A stretch of 64,000 nt of DNA from positions 186,001 to 250,000 of the forward strand of contig JAHCHE010000007.1 in the NCBI GenBank assembly GCA_026129905.1, written 5' to 3'. Positions 44,695 to 57,787 of the stretch are shown piece by piece. Made by a program: the position numbers and the translations under genes. The notes below the pieces were generated by a model. That model had not been told where the DNA came from and made no database searches. It was given only the letters and a program-made list of their open reading frames with translations. This stretch comes from Bryobacteraceae bacterium (GTDB lineage: Bacteria > Acidobacteriota > Terriglobia > Bryobacterales > Bryobacteraceae). Every line of letters begins with the position of its first letter. The stretch's first letter is position 1.

Positions 44695-44970
44695 ATGGAA
44701 GCCCTCGGAATGGTTGAAACGAAGGGTTTAGTGGGCGCCATCGAAGCCGCTGACGCCATGGTAAAGACCGCGAACGTGGAGCTGACCGGCAAAGAGTACA
44801 TCGGCGCGGGATTCGTCACCGTCACGGTGCGCGGCGATGTCGGCGCCGTCAAGGCGGCCACCGACGCCGGCGCGGCCGCTGCCCGGCGCGTGGGCGAACT
44901 CGTGGCCGTGCACGTGATCCCCAACCCTCACGCGGAAGTGGAGAAGATACTCCCCGGATCGAAGAAGTGA
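44695..44970 (+). CDS. BMC-H bacterial microcompartment shell protein
   Basis: Hexamer-forming shell protein of the PduA/EutM/CcmK family, which tiles the facets of protein organelles. The 91-residue sequence is a canonical single BMC domain: [87 protein letters not shown]. It has the edge lysine region (TGKEYIGAG) and the IPNPH segment that precedes the C-terminal helix. It is the only shell gene here. The dehydrogenase with an encapsulation-like tail begins 68 bases downstream. Without a pentameric BMC-P gene in the window the vertices must come from elsewhere, or the shell is incomplete. Confidence 0.96.
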
Positions 44971-45038: not shown

Positions 45039-46892
45039 ATGCTTCAGGATCAAGATCTCGTCGCTATACAGGAAGTCCGCTCCAAGGTAGAGGCCGCCCA
45101 CGCGGCATGGGAGAAGTTCCGGCGGTTCTCGCAGGACCAGGTGGACGCGGTAGTGGAGGCCGCCGCCGTCGCCGCGCGCGCCCAGGCCCTCGAGTTGGCC
45201 GAGATGGCGGTGGAGGAAACCGGCTACGGTAACGCCCGGGACAAGCTGGCCAAGAACCTCCTCAACGCGGATTTCCTCCCGCGCGCCATGCGCGGCATGA
45301 GGACTGTCGGCCTCCTCCGCGAGATCCCCGACAAAAAAGTGGTCGAGTACGGCGTGCCGGTGGGCGTGGTCGCGGCCATTGTCCCCACCACCAACCCTAC
45401 TTCGACGGTTATCTTCAAAACGCTGATCTCGCTCAAGGCCGGCAACGGCATCGTCCTCAGCCCGCACCCTCGCGCGAAGAAGTGCAGTGGCTATACCGCC
45501 GAACTGCTTGCCGCCTCCGCCCGCGAGGTCGGCGCGCCCGACGGCCTCATTCAGTGCCTGTCCAACGTCACGCAGGAAAGTACGCAGGCGCTGATGAAGC
45601 ACCCGAAAACCGGGATCATCCTGGCCACCGGGGGCCACGGCTTGGTTCGCGCGGCCTACTCCAGCGGCAAACCGGCTTACGGCGTGGGTCCCGGCAACGT
45701 CCCCGTCCTGCTGGAGAAATCCGCCGACGTGGCCGAGGCGGTCGCCCAGGTGGTAACCGGAAAGTCCTTCGACTTCGGCACCGTTTGCTCCAGCGAGCAG
45801 GCTCTGGTTACCTGCCGCGCGCTTCGCGACCAGGTCCTGGCCGAACTCAAGAAACAGAGGGCCTACATCTGCACGCGCGAGCAGGGCGAGGCGCTCGGCC
45901 GGCTCCTGATCACGCCCCATGGGCTTGTGGATCCCAAGTGCGTCGGCCAAGCCCCTGGCAAGATCGCCCGCATGGCCGGCTTCGAGGTCCCGCCGGACGC
46001 GTCCATCCTCGCCGTCGAGGTCGCCGGAGTCGGCAAGGAACACCCGCTTTCCAGCGAGAAGCTTTCACCCGTCCTCTCGCTGTTTTTCGTCGAGGACTTC
46101 CAGGCCGCGATGAATACCTGCGAGGCGATCCTTCGGTTCGGCGGCCTGGGTCACACCTGCGTCATTTTCTCCAAGGACGAGGCGCGAATCCGCGAGTTCG
46201 CCTTCCGGATGCCGGCCTACCGCGTACTGGTGAATACCCCGGCGCCGCAGGGCTCGGTCGGGCTCACGACCAACGTCTTCCCTTCCATGACGCTCGGCTG
46301 TGGCGCCGTGGCCGGCAACATCACCAGCGACAACGTCGGCCCGCAACACCTCATCAACATCAAGCGGCTTGCCTATGCCGTCCGCCGCGCCGAGGATGCC
46401 ATCACGATTCCCGAGGTCAAGAGTTCCGCCGCCCCGGCGCCCTCTCCCAGCTCTGCGCCCGGGCCTTCGAACGTGCCGCGCGAGCTGATCGAAGCCGCCG
46501 TCGAGAAGTATCTCTCCGAGCGCGGCCTCTCGCGCCGCGAACCGCCCGCGCCGCCGCCCGTAACCGCGAGCGCCCTGGCCGGCGTCGCCGAACAGGTGGT
46601 GGACCTGTTCCTGTCGTCCCGCGCGCGCAACTCCGGTCCGGCGCCTTCGTGCCCCATTCCGGCCGCCGGCAGGCAATCCGCCCCTGAAGTCGCGGCGGAA
46701 TCGGGCGCCCGGCCAAACCAGGTCTCCGGGCAGGCCGAGGTTCGCATTTCGGACTTTGTGTGCGAAAACGATGTCCGCGAGGCGATTGCCCAATCGCGAA
46801 AGATCTACATTGGCCCGAGAACGATCGTCACGCCTTCGGCGCGCGAACTCGCCGCGCACGGTGATATCCTGGTGCTCGCGCAACGCTCATGA
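45039..46892 (+). CDS. CoA-acylating aldehyde dehydrogenase with an extended C terminus (microcompartment enzyme)
   Basis: The first 460 residues are an EutE/PduP-type acylating aldehyde dehydrogenase that converts an aldehyde plus CoA and NAD to acyl-CoA. The catalytic Cys250 is in FDFGTVCSSEQALV, and VAAIVPTTNPTSTVIFKTLISLKAGNGIVLSPHPRA, GPGNVPVLLEKSADVAEAV and GSVGLTTNVFPSMTLGCGAVAGN are family blocks. About 155 extra residues follow, in three parts joined by Pro/Ser/Ala-rich linkers: an amphipathic helix VPRELIEAAVEKYLSERG (about 479-496), a second helix TASALAGVAEQVVDLFLSS (about 509-527), and a compact module with VCENDVREAIAQSRKIYIG and RTIVTPSARELAAHG (about 574-608). The helices look like encapsulation peptides and the module like one seen in other microcompartment proteins. 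It follows the shell gene and overlaps the next gene by four bases. Confidence 0.93.
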   Translation: MLQDQDLVAIQEVRSKVEAAHAAWEKFRRFSQDQVDAVVEAAAVAARAQALELAEMAVEETGYGNARDKLAKNLLNADFLPRAMRGMRTVGLLREIPDKKVVEYGVPVGVVAAIVPTTNPTSTVIFKTLISLKAGNGIVLSPHPRAKKCSGYTAELLAASAREVGAPDGLIQCLSNVTQESTQALMKHPKTGIILATGGHGLVRAAYSSGKPAYGVGPGNVPVLLEKSADVAEAVAQVVTGKSFDFGTVCSSEQALVTCRALRDQVLAELKKQRAYICTREQGEALGRLLITPHGLVDPKCVGQAPGKIARMAGFEVPPDASILAVEVAGVGKEHPLSSEKLSPVLSLFFVEDFQAAMNTCEAILRFGGLGHTCVIFSKDEARIREFAFRMPAYRVLVNTPAPQGSVGLTTNVFPSMTLGCGAVAGNITSDNVGPQHLINIKRLAYAVRRAEDAITIPEVKSSAAPAPSPSSAPGPSNVPRELIEAAVEKYLSERGLSRREPPAPPPVTASALAGVAEQVVDLFLSSRARNSGPAPSCPIPAAGRQSAPEVAAESGARPNQVSGQAEVRISDFVCENDVREAIAQSRKIYIGPRTIVTPSARELAAHGDILVLAQRS

Positions 46893-47383
46893 AAGCAGGA
46901 CTCGATAAGCTCAAAGAGGAGATCGAGGAGTACCTCGCTTCGGGGAACTTCATCGTCTACCACAGTCACTCGCGGGTCTCCGAACCGAGTCCCCTCGTCC
47001 ATTGGGATTCCGAACACTATCCCGACTTCCGGATGTTTGCCGACGCCTCCAAGCAACTCGAGGTGAAGCTCGTTTGCTTCCACCACCGGATGCTCGACCC
47101 CGATTTCATCGATAACGCTCTCGACGACCTCGAAAGCGTCGAAATCCCGCAAGAGGAGTACCGCCGCCTCGAAGAGCGGCTCCGCGAATTGCGCGTGTAC
47201 GAAGGCTTCACCAGCTTGGTGGAACTCTCGTTCTCGTACCAGGGCCAGATCTACATCTATACGCGCCGGGCCGAGTGGTACGAGGAACTTCTTGATATCG
47301 CCGAGGAAATCGACGACTATCTCTCCGCCGACGAAGAGGGCGACGAGGTGGATTCCATGGGCGGCTACTTCTCCAAGAACTGA
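46889..47383 (+). CDS. Conserved hypothetical acidic protein
   Basis: A 164-residue cytoplasmic protein, strongly acidic at its C terminus (EEIDDYLSADEEGDEVDSMGG). It starts with a charged helix (MKAGLDKLKEEIEEYLASGNFIVYHSHSRV) and has PLVHWDSEHYPDFRMFADASKQLEVKLVCFHHRMLD and YEGFTSLVELSFSYQGQIYIYTRRAEWYEEL in the middle. Several His residues (YHSHS, CFHHR) might bind metal, but no known motif is complete. Its ATG overlaps the dehydrogenase stop by four bases, which ties it to the microcompartment genes, and recJ starts 12 bases after it. I do not recognise the family, and its function is open. Confidence 0.8.
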   Translation: MKAGLDKLKEEIEEYLASGNFIVYHSHSRVSEPSPLVHWDSEHYPDFRMFADASKQLEVKLVCFHHRMLDPDFIDNALDDLESVEIPQEEYRRLEERLRELRVYEGFTSLVELSFSYQGQIYIYTRRAEWYEELLDIAEEIDDYLSADEEGDEVDSMGGYFSKN

Positions 47384-50552: not shown

Positions 50553-53500
50553 CTATCCCCCGCCGGCTGCTTCGTCCAGGCGCTTCTTCAGGCGGGCGGC
50601 CAGTTCCTGGACGTACGGCTCGCGGAAGATGCCGAAGGCGCGGCCGTGGATCGTTTCGATTTCCAGCCTGCCGCCCACAAGATCGCGCCAGAACGGACCG
50701 GGATCGCGAAAATAGTCGCCCTTTCCCTGGAAGTACACCACCGAGCCTGTGTACGACCCGGGCTCGTACCTGGCGACGGCGTGCCGGATCACCTCTTCGA
50801 TCTGCCGGCTTCGGAGCGCGGGAATGGCGCTGGCGGTTCGGCTTGGGCCCCGGAGGATCCGCACCAGCCAGCCGAGCGGGCGGTTGATCCGGTAGCGCAC
50901 GCGCATCAGCAGGTAGCCGACTCTTTCGCTCGACCGCAGCCTCGCCAGGTGACGGAAGTGATACCGGACGCCCTGCCAGAACGAACGGACCAGCTTCCAG
51001 TTGCCGTCGGTGTTGAAGGAAACGAGCAGGGCGACCTTCTTGCCGCGCGCCTCCAGTTGGCGAGCCATTTCGAGAGCGACGTAGGCGCCGGAGCAGAAGC
51101 CTCCCAGCAGGTACGGCCCCTCGGGCTGGACAGCCAACATCTCGGACAGATAAGCCTCCGCCATCGCTTCCACCGTTGTCAGCGGGGCGCGCTTTCCATC
51201 GAGGCCGATGGCTTGCAAGCCGTAGACCGGTTGGTCGGCGCCGAGCGCGACGGCCATCTCCCGGTAGAAGAGCACGTTCCCCCCCGCCGCGTGCACGCAG
51301 AACAGCGGCGGGCGAGAGCCGGTGGCCTGTATGGGGATGAGCGCGGCCCACGACGGTTGCCAACCTTCCCGGCGCAGCAGCCGCGCCAGTCCCTCAATCG
51401 TGGGCGACTCGAACAGCGTCGCCAGCGGAAGGTCTTTGCCGAAGGCGCGCTCGATATCGGCGAACAGCTTCACCGCCAGCAGCGAGTAGCCGCCGAGGTC
51501 GAAGAAATTGTCGCGCACGCCGATGGGATGTACGTTCAGCGTACGCTCCCAGATGCGGGTCAGCTCGGCCTCGATGCTGTCCGCGGGGCGGTGGATGGCG
51601 CGCTCGCCCACCAGGGGAGCGGGCGCAGGAAGCGCGCGGCGGTCGATTTTTCCGCTCTGCGTAAAGGGCAACGCGTCCAGCAACACATAGCGCGAAGGAA
51701 GCATGTAGGCCGGCAGCCTGACCTCGAGCCAATCGGAGAGGTCCTCGGCGCGGAGCTTTTCCCCGCCTTTGGCCGAGCAGTAGGCCACGAGCCGCTGTTC
51801 TCCCGGCTGGTCTTCGCGCATGACAACAGCGGCATGCTGAACACGCGGATGTCCGGACAACGCGGCCTCGATCTCCTCGAGTTCGATCCGGAACCCGCGA
51901 AATTTGACCTGGTGATCGCGGCGCCCGATGAACTCAATCTCGCCGCCGGCGCGGAAGCGCCCCATGTCGCCGCTCTTGTACAGCCGGGCGCCCGGTTCGG
52001 CGCTGAAGGAATCCGGGATGAAACGCTCCGCGGTGAGAGCGGGCCGGCGCAGGTAACCGCGGGCCACGCCCGAGCCTCCGATGTAGATTTCGCCCGGCGC
52101 GCCGACGGGGACCGGCTGCATGTGGCGGTCGAGAATGTAGACCTGCGCATTGGCGATGGGTTTGCCGATCGTCTCGGGACCCTCGGGCGTTCGCTGCGCG
52201 ATCGTGCAAAGGGTAGTGCACTCGGCGGGGCCGTAGCCGTCGTACAGAAACTGGACGGAGGTGCTGTCGAAGACCTGCTTGACCAGCGCTTGGTCGAGAC
52301 GCTCGCCCCCGATGAGCAAAGTGCGCAGCGAACGTGGAAGCCTGCCGCGCGTCAGCAGGCTGCTCATCGCCGAAGGAACCGTACTGGCAAGCCGGACCTC
52401 CTCGGCCGCCGGAATGTCGGGCAGGTGGAGGACGTTTTCAACGAGGACGATCGTTCCTCCGCGGCTCAGCGGAACGAACAGCTCGAATATCGACCAGTCG
52501 AAGGTCAGCGTGCTGGAAGCCAGGGCGCCGGCGAAATCCTCTGCCGGGAACTCGTCGCGGGCCCACTGCACGAACGCGACCGCGTTCCTATGCTCAATCG
52601 CCACTCCCTTCGGCTTCCCCGTGGAACCGGACGTGTAGATCACGTACGCGAGATTGCCGGGAGAAGGCGCAACAGCGCGATGGTCCCCAGAATCGTCGCC
52701 CGCGAAATCCCCATCGCCGTCGATGCATACGATGCTGGCGCCGTGCCGGGCAAGCGCCTCCGGAGGCGGATCGTTTGCCACCACCACCGGGCCGGCGCAG
52801 TCCTCGATCAGGAACGCCAACCGTTCGGGCGGATGGGACGGGTCAAGCGGAACATACGCGCCACCCGCCTTGAGAATGGCGAGAACTCCGGTCACCATTC
52901 CCGGCGAACGGCGGACGCAGATGGGCACGGTGACGTCAGGGCCCACACCGAGGGCGCGGAGCCGGCGCGCCAGGCGGTCCGCGCGGGCGTCCAATTCGGC
53001 GTACGTTATCCGGCGACGTCCGAATACGATCGCCGTTTGGTTCGGCGCCCGCTTCGCCTCGGCTTCAAACAATTCATGCAGCAGCCCGCCGGGGTAATCC
53101 TTGCGGGTCTCGTTCCATTCGCGCAACTCCTCGCGTTCCGGCGCGGTCAACATCTCGAGCTGGGAAACCCTGAGGGCCGGATTCGCCGCCGCCGACTCGA
53201 GCATCGCAACATAGTGCCCGGCCAAACGCCGCATGGCCTCGGCTTCGAACAACTCCGCGTTGTACTCGAACCACGCGCTGAAGCGGTCGCCCCGGTCGCG
53301 GATGGCCAGCAGGAGGTCGAACTTGCTCGTCCCCAGAGCAATGGCTTCCGCGGTGGCCTCCAGTCCGGCGAAGTCGAGAGCCGGGACGGGTTCCGAATAG
53401 AAAACGATCGCGACCAAGAATAGCGGCGAGTGGCGGCCGGGGCTGCGCTCGGGCTGAAGCTCGTTGACGAGCTTCTCGAAGGGCAGGTCCAGATGACTGT

Positions 53501-54566
53501 ACGCGTCCAGCGCCGACGCCCGAACCCGGCGCAATAGCTCGGCAAACGAGGGATCGGCGTCGAGATTCGCCCGCAGCGTCAGCGTGTTGACAAACACCCC
53601 GATGAGGTTTTCGATTTCCTGGCTATTGCGGTTGGCGACGTTGGCGCCGATCAGGAAGTCGGTCTGGCCGGTGTACCGGCTGAGCAAGGCCTGAAAGGCG
53701 GCCGCCATCAGCATGAACACCGTCGCCCGATGCGAGGTCGCCAGACCGCGCAGCCGCCGGGTCAGGTCCCACTCGATCGTGAACAGGACCCGTCCGCCCG
53801 CGTCGCTCTGCCGCGCCGGACGGCGGTGACTGGTGGGCAGTTCAAGCGGCGGGCTGCCCGCAAGCTGTCTGCGCCAGAAGTCGATATGCCCCGCGAGGAC
53901 TTCGTCGCGCAATTGCTCTTTCTGTGCGCGGGCGTAGTCGGCGTACTGAAGCGGCAGCGTCGGCAGCGCGGGCGCACGGCCGAGAACGGCAGCCGAGTAG
54001 AGCTCCCCGAGTTCGCGGACCAGGATCCGCAGGGACCACTCGTCGGAGACGATGTGATGCATGCCCACCAGCAGGACGTGTTCGTCGTCGGCGAGGCGCG
54101 CCAGTCCCGCCCGGACCGGCAGGTCCCGCGAGAGGTCGTATGCGCGCCGGCCCTCCTCGCGCAGGATCCGCTTCAGGTCCGGACCGGGGGGCAGGTCCGC
54201 CAGGACGAGCGGCCGGTCCGTTTCCACCGGAACGGGCACGCCGTCGCGATTCTCGATCAGTGTACGCAGGACGCGGTGACGATCCACGACGGCGTTCAGC
54301 GCGCGCTCGAGCGCGGGGCGGTTCAGCGCGCCCTTGAGACGCAGGGCGGCAGCCACATTGTAGACCGGACTTGCCGGCTCAAGCTGGTGAAAGAACCAGA
54401 GCCGCTCCTGGGCGAACGACAGAACGGGCGCCTGATACGCCGGACGCCGGGAAGCCACTGCGCTCTCGCTTTCGGGAAGCGTCAGTCCGCGTTCTTTGAG
54501 CCGTGTCTCCAGCGCGGCGCGCTGGCTCGGCGTCAGGTTGGCGATGCGCTCGCTCAGGCTGCTCAT
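50553..54566 (-). CDS. Nonribosomal peptide synthetase, terminal module C-A-PCP-TE
   Basis: 1337-residue module that adds an amino acid and releases the product. Condensation domain about 45-480 ([10 protein letters not shown], His 170-171); adenylation domain about 495-990 with [42 protein letters not shown] and [10 protein letters not shown]; carrier protein with the phosphopantetheine Ser1028 in [13 protein letters not shown]; thioesterase about 1085-1337. The thioesterase nucleophile site reads GGFCSGAY, with Cys1158 in the place of the usual Ser. The specificity-pocket region begins FDWSIFELF and does not match a code I know, so the amino acid is open. The start overlaps the previous module gene by four bases (ATGA). 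No MbtH, transporter or phosphopantetheinyl transferase is adjacent. Confidence 0.95.
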   Translation of the reverse strand: [1337 protein letters not shown]

Positions 54567-57500
54567 GACGGCAATTGGCTCAGGCCCTCCACTTCCGCCA
54601 GCAATTCGTCGATCTGGTTCCGTTCGCGGAGGGCTTCATCGACGGCGCGGGCCAGTTCGGCGACAGTGGGTGTCTCGAAGAGGCGGCGGAGCGGCAGGGC
54701 GACATTCCATTCGCGGCGAATGCGCGAGACGATCTGGACGGCGCGGAGCGAATTCCCGCCGACGTGGAAGAAGCTGTCGTTGAGCCCTACGCCGTCGATA
54801 TGAAGCACTTCGGACCAGATGGCGGCCAATTGCCGCTCCAACGGGGTTTGGGGCGCGGCGCGTTCCGCGCGATCGGACACGGGGACAACGGCCGGCGCCG
54901 GCAGCGACTTGCGGTCGACCTTGCCGTTGGTGTTTACCGGCAGCCGGTCCATGAATACGAAGTGGTCCGGGACCAGCGCCAGGGGCAATCGGGCCGCCAG
55001 GAACGAAGCCAATTCGCTTTGGGCGCACGGTTGGTTCAAGGCCACGTATGCGGCCAGCCTTGTCTGGCCTTGTTCGTCGTTGACCGGATTGACGAAGCAG
55101 GCCTTCACGCTTCCGTGTCCGGCCAGGACCGCCGAGACCTCCGCCGGCTCGATGCGGACACCCCGGATCTTCACCTGGTCGTCGACGCGGCCGGCCACGG
55201 TGAGCGAGCCATCGGGCAGGTAGCGCCCGCGGTCGCCCGTCCAATAAAGGAGGTCGTCCGGATCGCGGCGGAAGGGGTTGGCGACAAACCGGTTCCGATT
55301 GTCCTCCGGCGCGTTCACGTAACCAAGGGTCCGAAAAGGGGTCCGGATCGCGACTTCGCCGATTTCCCCGATGCCGCACAGCCGCTCGCGACCGGCCATC
55401 ACCAACACCTGTGTTTGCGGCAGCGGCCGGCCCGCCGGCAACAGGTCGGTCGGCTCGTCGTCGGGAAGCACGTAGCAGGTTTTCACCAGCGTTGTCTCGG
55501 TCGGTCCGTAGAGATTAACCAGCCGGGCATGCGGCGGAAGGCGGGCGCGCCAAAGGCGGGTCAACTCTCCGGTGAGCGGTTCGCCGGCGAACAGAACCCA
55601 ACGGAGCGCGCCGGGCGCGATGTCATCGTGAGCGGAGTCGAGCCAGATGCGCGCAAGCGTAGGGACGCAGTGCAGGATCGTGACCCGCTCCCGCGTCAGA
55701 AACGCCAGCACATGGTCGGGCGCGGCGTCGTCGCCGGCGGGCAGGCAAAGGGTTGCGCCGCAGGTCAACGGGAGGAACGTATCCCGCAGCGTCACGTCGA
55801 ATGACGGGTTTGTGAGGGCCGCCACGCGATCCGCCTCATCGACGGCGAACGTCTCCCGCTGCCAGGCGAGGAAATGACTCAAGCCCTTGTGGCATCCGAG
55901 AACGCCCTTCGGCGCGCCCGTCGTTCCGGAAGTGAAGAAGATGTAGGCCGGCGCATCGGGAGCGATCGACGGCAGCTCGGCCGAACCGGGCTCGGGTGAG
56001 GGATCCGCCGGCGTGCCTTCACCGGCGTCGATTCGGATCGCCGGCAAGCCGGATGCGGCGGGCGGCGCCGGATCCACTCCGGCGATGACAAGCCACCGGG
56101 CAGCGCCTTCGCGCAGCAATGTCTCCTTTCGCCGAGGTGGCAGATCCACTGCGACGGGCAGTATCACGCCGCCGCCCAGCAGCGCCCCCAGCAACCCGGC
56201 GATGAAGCCGAAACTCGGCGGACCCGTCACGGCGACCACGTCGCCCGTGCGCAAGCCTCGTTCGAGTAACGCGCGAGCGACAAGGAGGGCGCGCCGGTGG
56301 AGGACCGAATAGGTCCAGGAACGGCCGCCCTGGCTGACGGCGGAGCGGTCCGGGAAGCGCTCGGCCACGCGGGAAAACAGTCCGGTGACAGGCTCGTAAA
56401 CGGGGGCCGGCAACTCCGTTTGCGGATCGGGCAACAGGCGCCGCGCTTCCGGCGTGACCAGCGAATAGGCTTCAATGGCCCGGTCGGGATCCGCGGCGAT
56501 CTGCTCCAGCAGAAACGCGTACTGGCGGAGGAACTCCTCCATCCGTGCCGCGGTGAACTGAGCCCTCCGGTAAGTCAGCCGCAGGTTGAGGCCGCCCTGC
56601 TTGCGCCACAAGTACAGGGTCATCGCGAATTTGGAGTGAGATTCCGGCAGATCCCACCGCGTGACCGTCAGTCCGGGGAGGCGGTGCGGCTGTTCCGAGA
56701 AACCGGCGAAATTCAGCATTACCTCGAACAGCGGGTTCCGACTGAGGCTGCGCTCGACGCCCAATTCCTCGACGAGCCTTTCAAAAGGCATTTCCTGGTG
56801 GTCGTAGGCATCAAGCGCCGTCTGGCGGACGCGCCGCAGCAGGTCGCGGAACGAAATACCGGGCGAGAGGCTGGCTCGCATCACCAGGGTATTGACGAAG
56901 AAACCGATGACGTTCTCCGTCTTTCGGCCGGCGCGGCCGGCAATTGGCGCTCCGACGGCGAAGTCGTCCTGGCCCGTCAGCCGGCCGAGGTGGAGCTCCA
57001 AGGCGGCGAGCAGCAGCATGAAGAGCGTGCCGCTCTCGCCCGAAGCAACGGCGCCCAACGTCTGGCACAGTTCCGGGGCCAGGTCGCGCGAGACCACGTC
57101 GCCGCGGTGATCGGGCTGCGCGGGGAGGAGGAAATCGGCGGGAATTTCCAGGGCCGACGGCAGTCCGCTGAGCTGCCGTTTCCAATACGAGAGCTGTTCT
57201 TCGAAGGCCGGACTTTCAAACCACTCGCGCTGGCGTTTGGCGTATTCCAGGTACGAGCCCGCGGCCGGGAGATCCGCCGCCGGCGCTCCGCAATGCGCGG
57301 CATAGAGACTATCGATCTCCCGCGCCAGGATCCGGCCGGACCAGCCGTCGGAAGCGATATGGTGGATGCAGAGCAGGAGCACGTGCTCCTCGTCGCTCAG
57401 GCGAAGCAGCGAGGCGCGGATGGGACGATCCCGCTCCAGATCAAACGGGCGGTACGCTTCGCGGGCGAGGTATTCCCGCACTCGGACGTCATCCGTCGCC

Positions 57501-57787
57501 AGCTTTTTCGCGCGCCAATCGAGAACTTCAAACGGGAGCCGCGCATCACGGTGGATGATTTGGACCGGCCTGCCTTCGAATTCCCGGAAGGTAGCCCGCA
57601 GCGCTTCGTGCCGGGCGACCACATCCTCCAGCGCCTTGCGCAGCGCTTCCACATCCAGGGCGCCGGCGAGATGAAACGCCTGGGGGACGTTATAAGCAGG
57701 CGAATTCGGCTCCAATTGAGACAGAAACCACAGGCGTTCCTGGCCGAACGAAAGCATCGCCGTCGATGTGGCGCCCTGGCCGGTCAC
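54563..57787 (-). CDS. Nonribosomal peptide synthetase, first module C-A-PCP
   Basis: 1074-residue module. Condensation domain about 10-440 with CIHHIASDGWS (His 142-143); adenylation domain about 460-960 with YIFFTSGTTGAPKGVLGCHKG, RWVLFAGEPLTG, NLYGPTETTLV and LYWTGDRGRYL; carrier protein with Ser1013 in DSFFHVGGNSLRA. As the first gene of the cluster it nevertheless starts with a condensation domain. This suggests a starter-type domain that adds a fatty-acyl group, or an unseen partner. In the adenylation pocket FDVTLRDTFLPL has Arg-Asp where most amino-acid-activating domains have Trp/Phe-Glu, so an unusual substrate is possible. The start is a GTG at 57787 behind GGGAGGG. The second module follows with a four-base overlap. 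Confidence 0.95.
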   Translation of the reverse strand: MTGQGATSTAMLSFGQERLWFLSQLEPNSPAYNVPQAFHLAGALDVEALRKALEDVVARHEALRATFREFEGRPVQIIHRDARLPFEVLDWRAKKLATDDVRVREYLAREAYRPFDLERDRPIRASLLRLSDEEHVLLLCIHHIASDGWSGRILAREIDSLYAAHCGAPAADLPAAGSYLEYAKRQREWFESPAFEEQLSYWKRQLSGLPSALEIPADFLLPAQPDHRGDVVSRDLAPELCQTLGAVASGESGTLFMLLLAALELHLGRLTGQDDFAVGAPIAGRAGRKTENVIGFFVNTLVMRASLSPGISFRDLLRRVRQTALDAYDHQEMPFERLVEELGVERSLSRNPLFEVMLNFAGFSEQPHRLPGLTVTRWDLPESHSKFAMTLYLWRKQGGLNLRLTYRRAQFTAARMEEFLRQYAFLLEQIAADPDRAIEAYSLVTPEARRLLPDPQTELPAPVYEPVTGLFSRVAERFPDRSAVSQGGRSWTYSVLHRRALLVARALLERGLRTGDVVAVTGPPSFGFIAGLLGALLGGGVILPVAVDLPPRRKETLLREGAARWLVIAGVDPAPPAASGLPAIRIDAGEGTPADPSPEPGSAELPSIAPDAPAYIFFTSGTTGAPKGVLGCHKGLSHFLAWQRETFAVDEADRVAALTNPSFDVTLRDTFLPLTCGATLCLPAGDDAAPDHVLAFLTRERVTILHCVPTLARIWLDSAHDDIAPGALRWVLFAGEPLTGELTRLWRARLPPHARLVNLYGPTETTLVKTCYVLPDDEPTDLLPAGRPLPQTQVLVMAGRERLCGIGEIGEVAIRTPFRTLGYVNAPEDNRNRFVANPFRRDPDDLLYWTGDRGRYLPDGSLTVAGRVDDQVKIRGVRIEPAEVSAVLAGHGSVKACFVNPVNDEQGQTRLAAYVALNQPCAQSELASFLAARLPLALVPDHFVFMDRLPVNTNGKVDRKSLPAPAVVPVSDRAERAAPQTPLERQLAAIWSEVLHIDGVGLNDSFFHVGGNSLRAVQIVSRIRREWNVALPLRRLFETPTVAELARAVDEALRERNQIDELLAEVEGLSQLPS

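Follow-up and report, generated by a model that had tools for sequence, protein, structure and literature searches.

What is a microcompartment aldehyde dehydrogenase (AldDH) doing with about 156 extra residues behind its enzyme part? The question is raised by a gene in a 64,000-nucleotide stretch of a Bryobacteraceae bacterium (GCA_026129905.1, contig JAHCHE010000007.1, forward-strand positions 186,001 to 250,000; hereafter the window), whose product, the window AldDH, ends in a tail where two helices resembling encapsulation peptides (EPs) and a small, predictedly folded module are strung on linkers. Seeing sequence homology between this module and the part of EutQ that serves the shell side, we think it somewhat more likely than not that the tail serves as a linker between shell and core that forms part of a core enzyme.

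Anatomy of the dehydrogenase tail

The preliminary description of this stretch, made from its letters alone, had reported that the enzyme runs on past its normal end with a C-terminal extension of about 155 residues bearing two short motifs, and this was confirmed, the open reading frame (ORF), its length of 617 aa and the quoted motifs all being verified in the sequence. The best family for the protein is TIGR02518 (541.8 bits over residues 4-455, which is under the curated cut-off of 620.1), a family that we take to be a member of IPR013357, the type I microcompartment AldDHs. Because this match ends at residue 455, a tail of about 156 residues is left behind the enzyme part, and it has no significant match in Pfam or NCBIfam. 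The gene divides as follows.

45039-46892, + strand: AldDH gene, 617 aa
45039-46418, + strand: catalytic region (acetylating, TIGR02518-like), residues 1-460; PF00171, 7.1e-30
46419-46478, + strand: linker 1, Pro/Ser/Ala-rich and likely flexible; confidence block means 49-57, below 50 at full length; poorly conserved
46479-46520, + strand: EP-like helix 1, residues 481-494, consensus VxAAVERYLAxRG; block means 90 and 77
46521-46565, + strand: linker 2, Pro-rich; block mean 60, partly below 50 at full length; poorly conserved
46566-46628, + strand: EP-like helix 2, residues ~510-531, consensus AxIVDRFLAxR; block means 74-83
46629-46745, + strand: linker 3, Pro/Ala-rich, with one Cys; largely below 50 in both runs
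46746-46877, + strand: EutQ/EutT-type module (by model and homology), residues 570-613, predicted beta-alpha-beta-alpha-beta, core DFVCENDVREAI...KIYIGPRTIVTPSAREL

The block means in these lines are from AlphaFold2, run on the window AldDH tail together with 23 orthologue tails (24 sequences) and, separately, on the full-length protein. The tail model contains a helix at 481-494, a second at 510-531 and a module at 570-613 built as strand-helix-strand-helix-strand, for which the predicted local distance difference test (pLDDT) reaches 96-97 (about 88-93 in the full-length run), in keeping with the compact C-terminal module that had been proposed. Linker pLDDT is low, with block means of 43-68 in the tail run and values largely below 50 in the full-length run; the two runs agree over the tail, and the catalytic-domain end is poorly modelled at full length (shallow alignment).

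The orthologues came from a scan of genome contigs that gave 41 loci: 22 acidobacterial ones match to residue 605-616, and the rest are L021 (best segment to 497, open to the full end), the C-terminal fragments L044 and L048, and 16 dehydrogenases whose matches fall short of the module. The tail alignment comprises 23 long orthologues and the window AldDH (n = 24). Scored in 20-residue blocks across these 24 proteins, the mean top-residue frequency is 0.27-0.34 where linker predominates, 0.55-0.56 where most of the helix residues lie and 0.61-0.75 within the module; conservation is a feature of the helices and the module and not of the linkers. At least two linker Cys, often as CxC or CxxC, are present in 16 of the 24, with one in the window AldDH and none in seven, and six of those seven (L018, L019, L020, L025, L046, L047) have an extra Cys inside the module.

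That AldDHs of the type I kind carry C-terminal EPs, normally one each, is already known (PMC8217296), and the expected EP helix on a flexible linker is found here, in the model, as two EP-like helices. Two copies of an EP-like motif occur in the tails of 21 of the 24 orthologues, whereas across 500 shuffles the number of tails with two was 0.02 on average and 2 of 24 at most. The motif falls at helix 1 in 22/24 and at helix 2 in 22/24; it sits within the helix in a shifted register in helix 2 of the window AldDH, helix 1 of L008 and helix 2 of L010. Among 29 module-bearing AldDHs of other Acidobacteriota, 20 have one motif, nine none (several of these with a near variant, by eye) and none has two. 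Given 21/24 against 0/29, the EP looks to have been doubled in the order of the window AldDH, atop an older EP-plus-module tail. Engineered tandem fusions of two EPs condense more readily than a single EP (inflection 15.5 versus 33.1 uM), and three in tandem do no better than two (PMC12339742). In the open-access literature, as distinct from subscription journals, supplements and preprints, we came across no description of the shared module, nor of a doubled EP accompanying it.

Kinship and occurrence of the module

We built a hidden Markov model (HMM) from 26 module sequences of the window AldDH family alone (the AldDH-only HMM). Against 16 E. coli Eut proteins it ranked EutT first (residues 3-39, E 1.3e-4) and EutQ second (8-39, 1.9e-4), the third place falling to 0.46. 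In HHalign the AldDH module scored 98.5% over 40 columns against 26 Bacillota EutQ N-termini, and 30 column-shuffled EutQ sets reached at most 1.7%; in the profile-profile comparison, the value for 47 module segments from the C-termini of other carriers was 98.4%. Among 8910 ORFs from 93 Bacillota regions, a set enriched because the regions were picked with a broader profile that included the window AldDH family, the hits of the same HMM at E<=1e-3 were 40 ORFs, all with the module, and at E<=0.1 they were 83 with it and 1 without. The predicted helices 576-584 and 599-606 align approximately with EutQ 7-15 and 31-39, segments that fall inside the published H1 (9-21) and H2 (22-41) or overlap them; the model also has strands, of which the EutQ H1/H2 passages in PMC12487888 make no mention. 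Judged by these profile comparisons, EutQ and EutT have at their N-termini a homologue of the C-terminal module of the AldDH.

The profile search against microcompartment proteins thus returned homologues in EutQ, EutT and others, with a divergent form in PduM, and the suggestion that this is a docking module gains support because its sequence homologues include the shell-side part of EutQ and parts of several other microcompartment proteins. An extension disordered throughout and without kin elsewhere is not what emerged: the module is folded in the prediction and homologues were found. Since the protein lacks the EutQ cupin domain PF06249, the AldDH is not itself a EutQ.

Other identities fared poorly. 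Foldseek with the module model gave no PDB match at E<=0.001, and a PDB sequence search with the module gave no solved structure; two rows for de novo TIM barrels add up a 17-18 residue match that recurs four times and fails each time on its own. We found no Pfam model naming the module, which falls at the end of PF15953 (PDU_like), a model that matches weakly in one RpiB (113-152 of 153) and matches 2 of 106 Bacillota carriers. We rejected as highly improbable an identity with the peripheral-subunit-binding domain (PSBD, E3_binding, PF02817), the small helical docking domain of 2-oxoacid dehydrogenases: the best PDB sequence match of the module is indeed the BCKDH E2 PSBD (E 0.26), and two module-bearing relatives show weak PF02817 matches (0.018 and 0.031), but these matches, some 20 residues long, fall short of significance, the window AldDH has no PF02817 match, and the predicted fold is a different one that contains strands and found no Foldseek match at the same threshold. 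As a side observation, the module profile gives a weak match (E 0.0034) to L093 (G198:C2), apparently the translation initiation factor IF-2, and the IF-2 C1 domain is among the insignificant Foldseek matches of the module, perhaps through a shared small fold or by chance.

Module-bearing proteins are varied in kind. Each of the 116 Bacillota module ORFs has the module at one end (47 C-terminal, 69 N-terminal), and 106 of them were scanned for other domains. Outside the module, Pfam identified the EutQ cupin in 29, a flavoprotein domain in 19, cobalamin adenosyltransferase (EutT) in eight, PduL-type phosphotransacylase in seven, ACT in four and AldDH in one, the remainder having none at E<=1e-5. 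NCBIfam gave TIGR02536 for 48, EutQ for 33, EutT for eight, PduL for seven and PduM for seven, but these counts are inflated through the module itself, whose stretch alone draws L162, L191, L158 and L205 to TIGR02536 and L226 and L181 to PduM models, so our carrier list rests on the Pfam domains outside it. Four loci (L091, L093, L094, L095) were dropped from that list as chance or doubtful matches.

In Acidobacteriota, the module is also found at the start of RpiB and class II aldolase. The C-terminal module of a curated protein annotated as PduM (Kosakonia; 220 bits versus a cut-off of 179) is divergent and lacks the TP of TPxAR; with profile A5 this PduM scores E 9.8e-4, the best among the 26 proteins of its locus, but with the AldDH-only HMM it reaches only 0.057. 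PduM models match the L181 module at 4e-7 over their last 42 positions, and the C-terminal stretch of PduM is, on this sequence evidence, probably homologous to the module. In a Bacillota AldDH (L197, 4306-6222) the module and an EP-like helix precede the enzyme and a further EP-like helix follows it (helices by eye), apparently a second, independent fusion of module and AldDH. Two ORFs of about 90-100 aa in shell-gene loci (L158, 5842-6144; L206, 11270-11545) consist of the module and two apparent helices, again by eye, and resemble a free-standing EutQ(1-99) without the cupin.

To see where the module occurs, we surveyed 396 genomes of Acidobacteriota (module at E<=0.01), 388 of Bacillota (E<=1e-4) and 195 of Myxococcota, phylum labels that are in part presumed. 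The shell domain PF00936 and the module keep close company: among the Acidobacteriota, 130 genomes have the module, 169 PF00936, 128 both, two the module only and 225 neither, and at a module threshold of E<=1e-6 all 125 of 125 also have PF00936. The corresponding Bacillota counts are 76, 104, 72, four and 280. The module-only genomes (G198 and G232; G455, G626, G745 and G766) were kept in the counts. Fisher values for the association are 2.8e-64 in Acidobacteriota and 1.5e-47 in Bacillota, which overstate the number of independent events because the genomes are related to one another. A shell gene is present in 89 of the 93 Bacillota module regions (all 105 hits; fetched stretches of up to ~6 kb each side), and in Myxococcota the module occurs in 8/195 genomes, always on TIGR02536-like proteins (by eye, with NCBIfam run on one). 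The module is strongly associated with microcompartment genomes and loci.

The locus and its host genome

Two further genes adjoin the AldDH in the window.

44695-44970, + strand: BMC-H shell protein gene, 91 aa, directly upstream of the AldDH; PF00936, 2e-28
46889-47383, + strand: 164-aa ORF with a 4-base overlap with the AldDH stop; no significant Pfam or NCBIfam match

Of 25 loci, 22 have the BMC-H 28-110 bp ahead of the AldDH (L027 and L045 by short partial matches), and the three loci without it have at most 62 bases of upstream sequence each. This upstream BMC-H is a candidate docking partner of the module, and it keeps the residues matching EutM K53 and D57, with R in place of Q64; the BMC-H on C52 has R at the K53 position as well. 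The 164-aa ORF stands beside the AldDH in all 25 orthologous loci, with recJ following in 24 (the recJ and BMC-H counts being partly limited by contig ends), and could be an unrecognised compartment or RecJ partner.

Shell genes of the host lie in three places: C52, with a class II aldolase (PF00596, L049 5685-6464; its C-terminal EP judged by eye), a BMC-H and three BMC-P (PF03319); C67, with a BMC-H and the window AldDH; and C7, with a Nuo51/RnfC-like protein and a double BMC domain. We thus find features of the ACI-type acidobacterial microcompartment, with a main locus of class II aldolase, BMC-P triplet and BMC-H, and the AldDH beside its own BMC-H on a satellite locus, where the AldDH of that type has been reported (PMC8217296). 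The passages of the ACI account name mainly Subdivisions 4 and 6 and make no mention of a doubled EP or of the module (PMC8217296). The nearest labelled relatives of the window AldDH are Bryobacterales/Solibacteraceae.

Searching the host genome revealed no second module protein (next best E 1.91 and 0.885), no hit to the EutQ domain PF06249 at E<=0.1 and no hit to PF15953; the assembly is 98.23% complete in 71 contigs, and the absence of EutQ or another module carrier is for that reason not proven. Elsewhere in the window, at 50553-57787 on the - strand, two large ORFs of 1337 and 1074 aa show nonribosomal peptide synthetase-like modules by eye.

A proposed linker within the enzyme and its alternatives

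With the tail acting as a linker, the two EP-like helices, which look like a duplication of the one EP that many other acidobacterial relatives have at the C-terminus, would pair with each other and with EPs on further cargo, the class II aldolase for example, and in this way gather the enzyme core. The C-terminal module, the same kind of domain as EutQ H1/H2, would dock on shell BMC-H, presumably from the lumen side and possibly at a BMC-H/BMC-T junction, and the flexible Pro-rich linkers would let one oligomer reach both core and shell. The AldDH would then be a cis-acting linker whose paired EPs hold the core and whose module ties the core to the shell. We infer from these likenesses that the module may bind shell BMC-H, as by analogy with EutQ, that the helices may bind further cargo, the aldolase for instance, and that the window AldDH may stand in for EutQ/PduM.

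The closest model for this arrangement is EutQ of Salmonella LT2, in which the shell side depends on residues 9-41 and the hold on cargo EPs on 62-99, such that EutQ without 62-99 follows the shell and EutQ without 9-41 follows the cargo (PMC12487888). Deleting EutQ breaks the shell-core association (PMC12487888), and removing residues 1-100 apparently abolishes the EutM pull-down in vitro (PMC4827028). Loss of PduM likewise leaves shell and cargo apart (PMC9132943). The N-terminal region of EutQ (H1/H2 at 9-41, a flexible 42-61, H3/H4 at 62-99) has the same kinds of parts as the AldDH tail, including the folded module that is homologous by sequence, and for EutQ the tie from core to shell has been shown (PMC12487888). 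The two differ in that the EutQ parts are N-terminal, with the module first, on a cupin acetate kinase, whereas those of the AldDH are C-terminal with the helices first, and in that H3/H4 bind the EPs of others, whereas the AldDH helices look like EPs themselves. TIGR02536-type proteins have a clear C-terminal module, often with an EP-like helix at the start, and PduM has its divergent C-terminal one, but these are separate linker or flavoprotein-like proteins rather than AldDHs, and PduM is apparently nearer to cargo than to shell (PMC9132943). The carboxysome linkers CcmN and CsoS2 are work-alikes, likened to the AldDH tail by role and not by sequence: each is a flexible protein tying core enzyme to shell, a comparison already made for EutQ (PMC12487888), but as a separate scaffold protein.

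A broader proposal, to which we give rather less credence than to the linker itself, is that the beta-alpha-beta-alpha-beta domain may be a general second address and docking system beside EPs, and that module and doubled EP together would make the AldDH self-scaffolding in replacement of EutQ/PduM. Its users would be EutQ, EutT, PduM/TIGR02536-type proteins, PduL, RpiB, class II aldolases and AldDHs, a membership that we put forward just as tentatively.

Much of the same evidence could be read more sparingly, with helices and module as mere address tags into the lumen that organise no other enzymes. A single C-terminal EP being the norm on type I AldDHs (PMC8217296), the module sitting also on RpiB, PduL and EutT, enzymes that merely need to be inside, and EutQ(1-99) sufficing to target sfGFP to the compartment (PMC12487888) all suit redundant targeting. 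We nevertheless judge this unlikely, with perhaps a minor claim on the data, since loss of EutQ or PduM breaks the association of shell and core beyond the protein's own import (PMC12487888, PMC9132943) and the EP is doubled in the window AldDH family, which address alone would not need. Less likely still is that the module serves as a core-core adaptor whose partner is another cargo protein or a BMC-T N-terminal extension, as proposed for PduM, and not the BMC-H face. PduM does cluster with cargo when PduB(1-37) is missing (PMC9132943), and loci may hold several module proteins (three module ORFs in L206), which suits a shared partner, but the EutQ deletions point the other way, co-localisation with the shell surviving the loss of 62-99 and that with cargo surviving the loss of 9-41, and EutC(1-20) causes no nuclear magnetic resonance shifts among the assigned EutQ residues 2-62, H1/H2 included (PMC12487888).

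A sensory role, in which the module would use its invariant Cys, together with those of the linker, for metal binding or as a redox switch, appears quite improbable to us. C575 is invariant in 24/24 AldDH orthologues, and the clade without linker Cys has an extra module Cys, but in alignment A6 that Cys is missing from the majority of other modules, those of E. coli EutQ and EutT, RpiB and PduL among them, a Neobacillus EutQ with one at about the C575 place being an exception, and sensing therefore cannot be the general function of the module.

Several observations weigh against the linker reading itself. Four Bacillota exceptions (L229, L240, L243, L244) are ACT-domain proteins by Pfam with a module-like N-terminus, and neither their loci nor their genomes have shell genes; the module-like start looks intact in L240, R replaces the P of TPxAR in L229, and the AldDH-only HMM scores the four weakly (E 0.065, 3.7, 5.9 and >10). 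They are either a use of the fold outside microcompartments or look-alikes, and the domain may on their account not be confined to microcompartments; together with the divergence of the PduM module, they slightly weaken the linker reading and the broader proposal of a general docking system. On the shell side, the AldDH-adjacent BMC-H has R at the position of EutM Q64, where Q64K, like K53D, D57A and D57K, abolishes EutQ binding in vitro, and the helix concerned was assumed by those authors to face the cytosol (PMC4827028). PduM co-localises with cargo and not shell when PduB(1-37) is missing (PMC9132943), such that the partner of the module need not be the shell in every case; the PduM module may face cargo or PduB instead of BMC-H, and this, with the ACT-domain proteins, is the weightiest caution.

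The helices, too, are not uniform, with a single EP motif in two of the 24 orthologues and none in one. Two helices on linkers of low confidence were recovered much as the preliminary description had them, but their amphipathic character was not borne out: the hydrophobic moment exceeded composition shuffles at p<=0.05 in 0/23 cases for helix 1 (L024 being too short) and 2/24 for helix 2, by a test that is weak because the documented EP of EutE misses it (0.185) and that of EutC barely passes (0.040). The earlier suggestion that the enzyme organises the core in place of separate scaffold proteins fits the host genome, in which no EutQ or other module carrier was found, and fits the relatives less well. 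Of 25 related genomes, 20 have a second module protein at E<=1e-3 and five none; the 21 such proteins look like RpiB (19) and class II aldolase (2) (by Pfam on one each, the rest by eye), none of them EutQ- or PduM-like, and the AldDH is therefore not the sole carrier there. Among 15 RpiB loci examined, 13 lack a shell gene in the fetched stretch and two have one.

How a core is tied to its shell is understood in few microcompartments, by way of CcmN, CsoS2, EutQ and PduB/PduM. A shared module linking EutQ, and probably PduM, with half a dozen other enzyme families would unite what have been separate cases under one mechanism, and it would allow linkers to be sought by sequence in compartments that are still uncharacterised. 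It also suggests a compact folded docking tag for engineering, to be used alongside EPs, and the window AldDH would represent a natural single-chain version of the core-shell linker.

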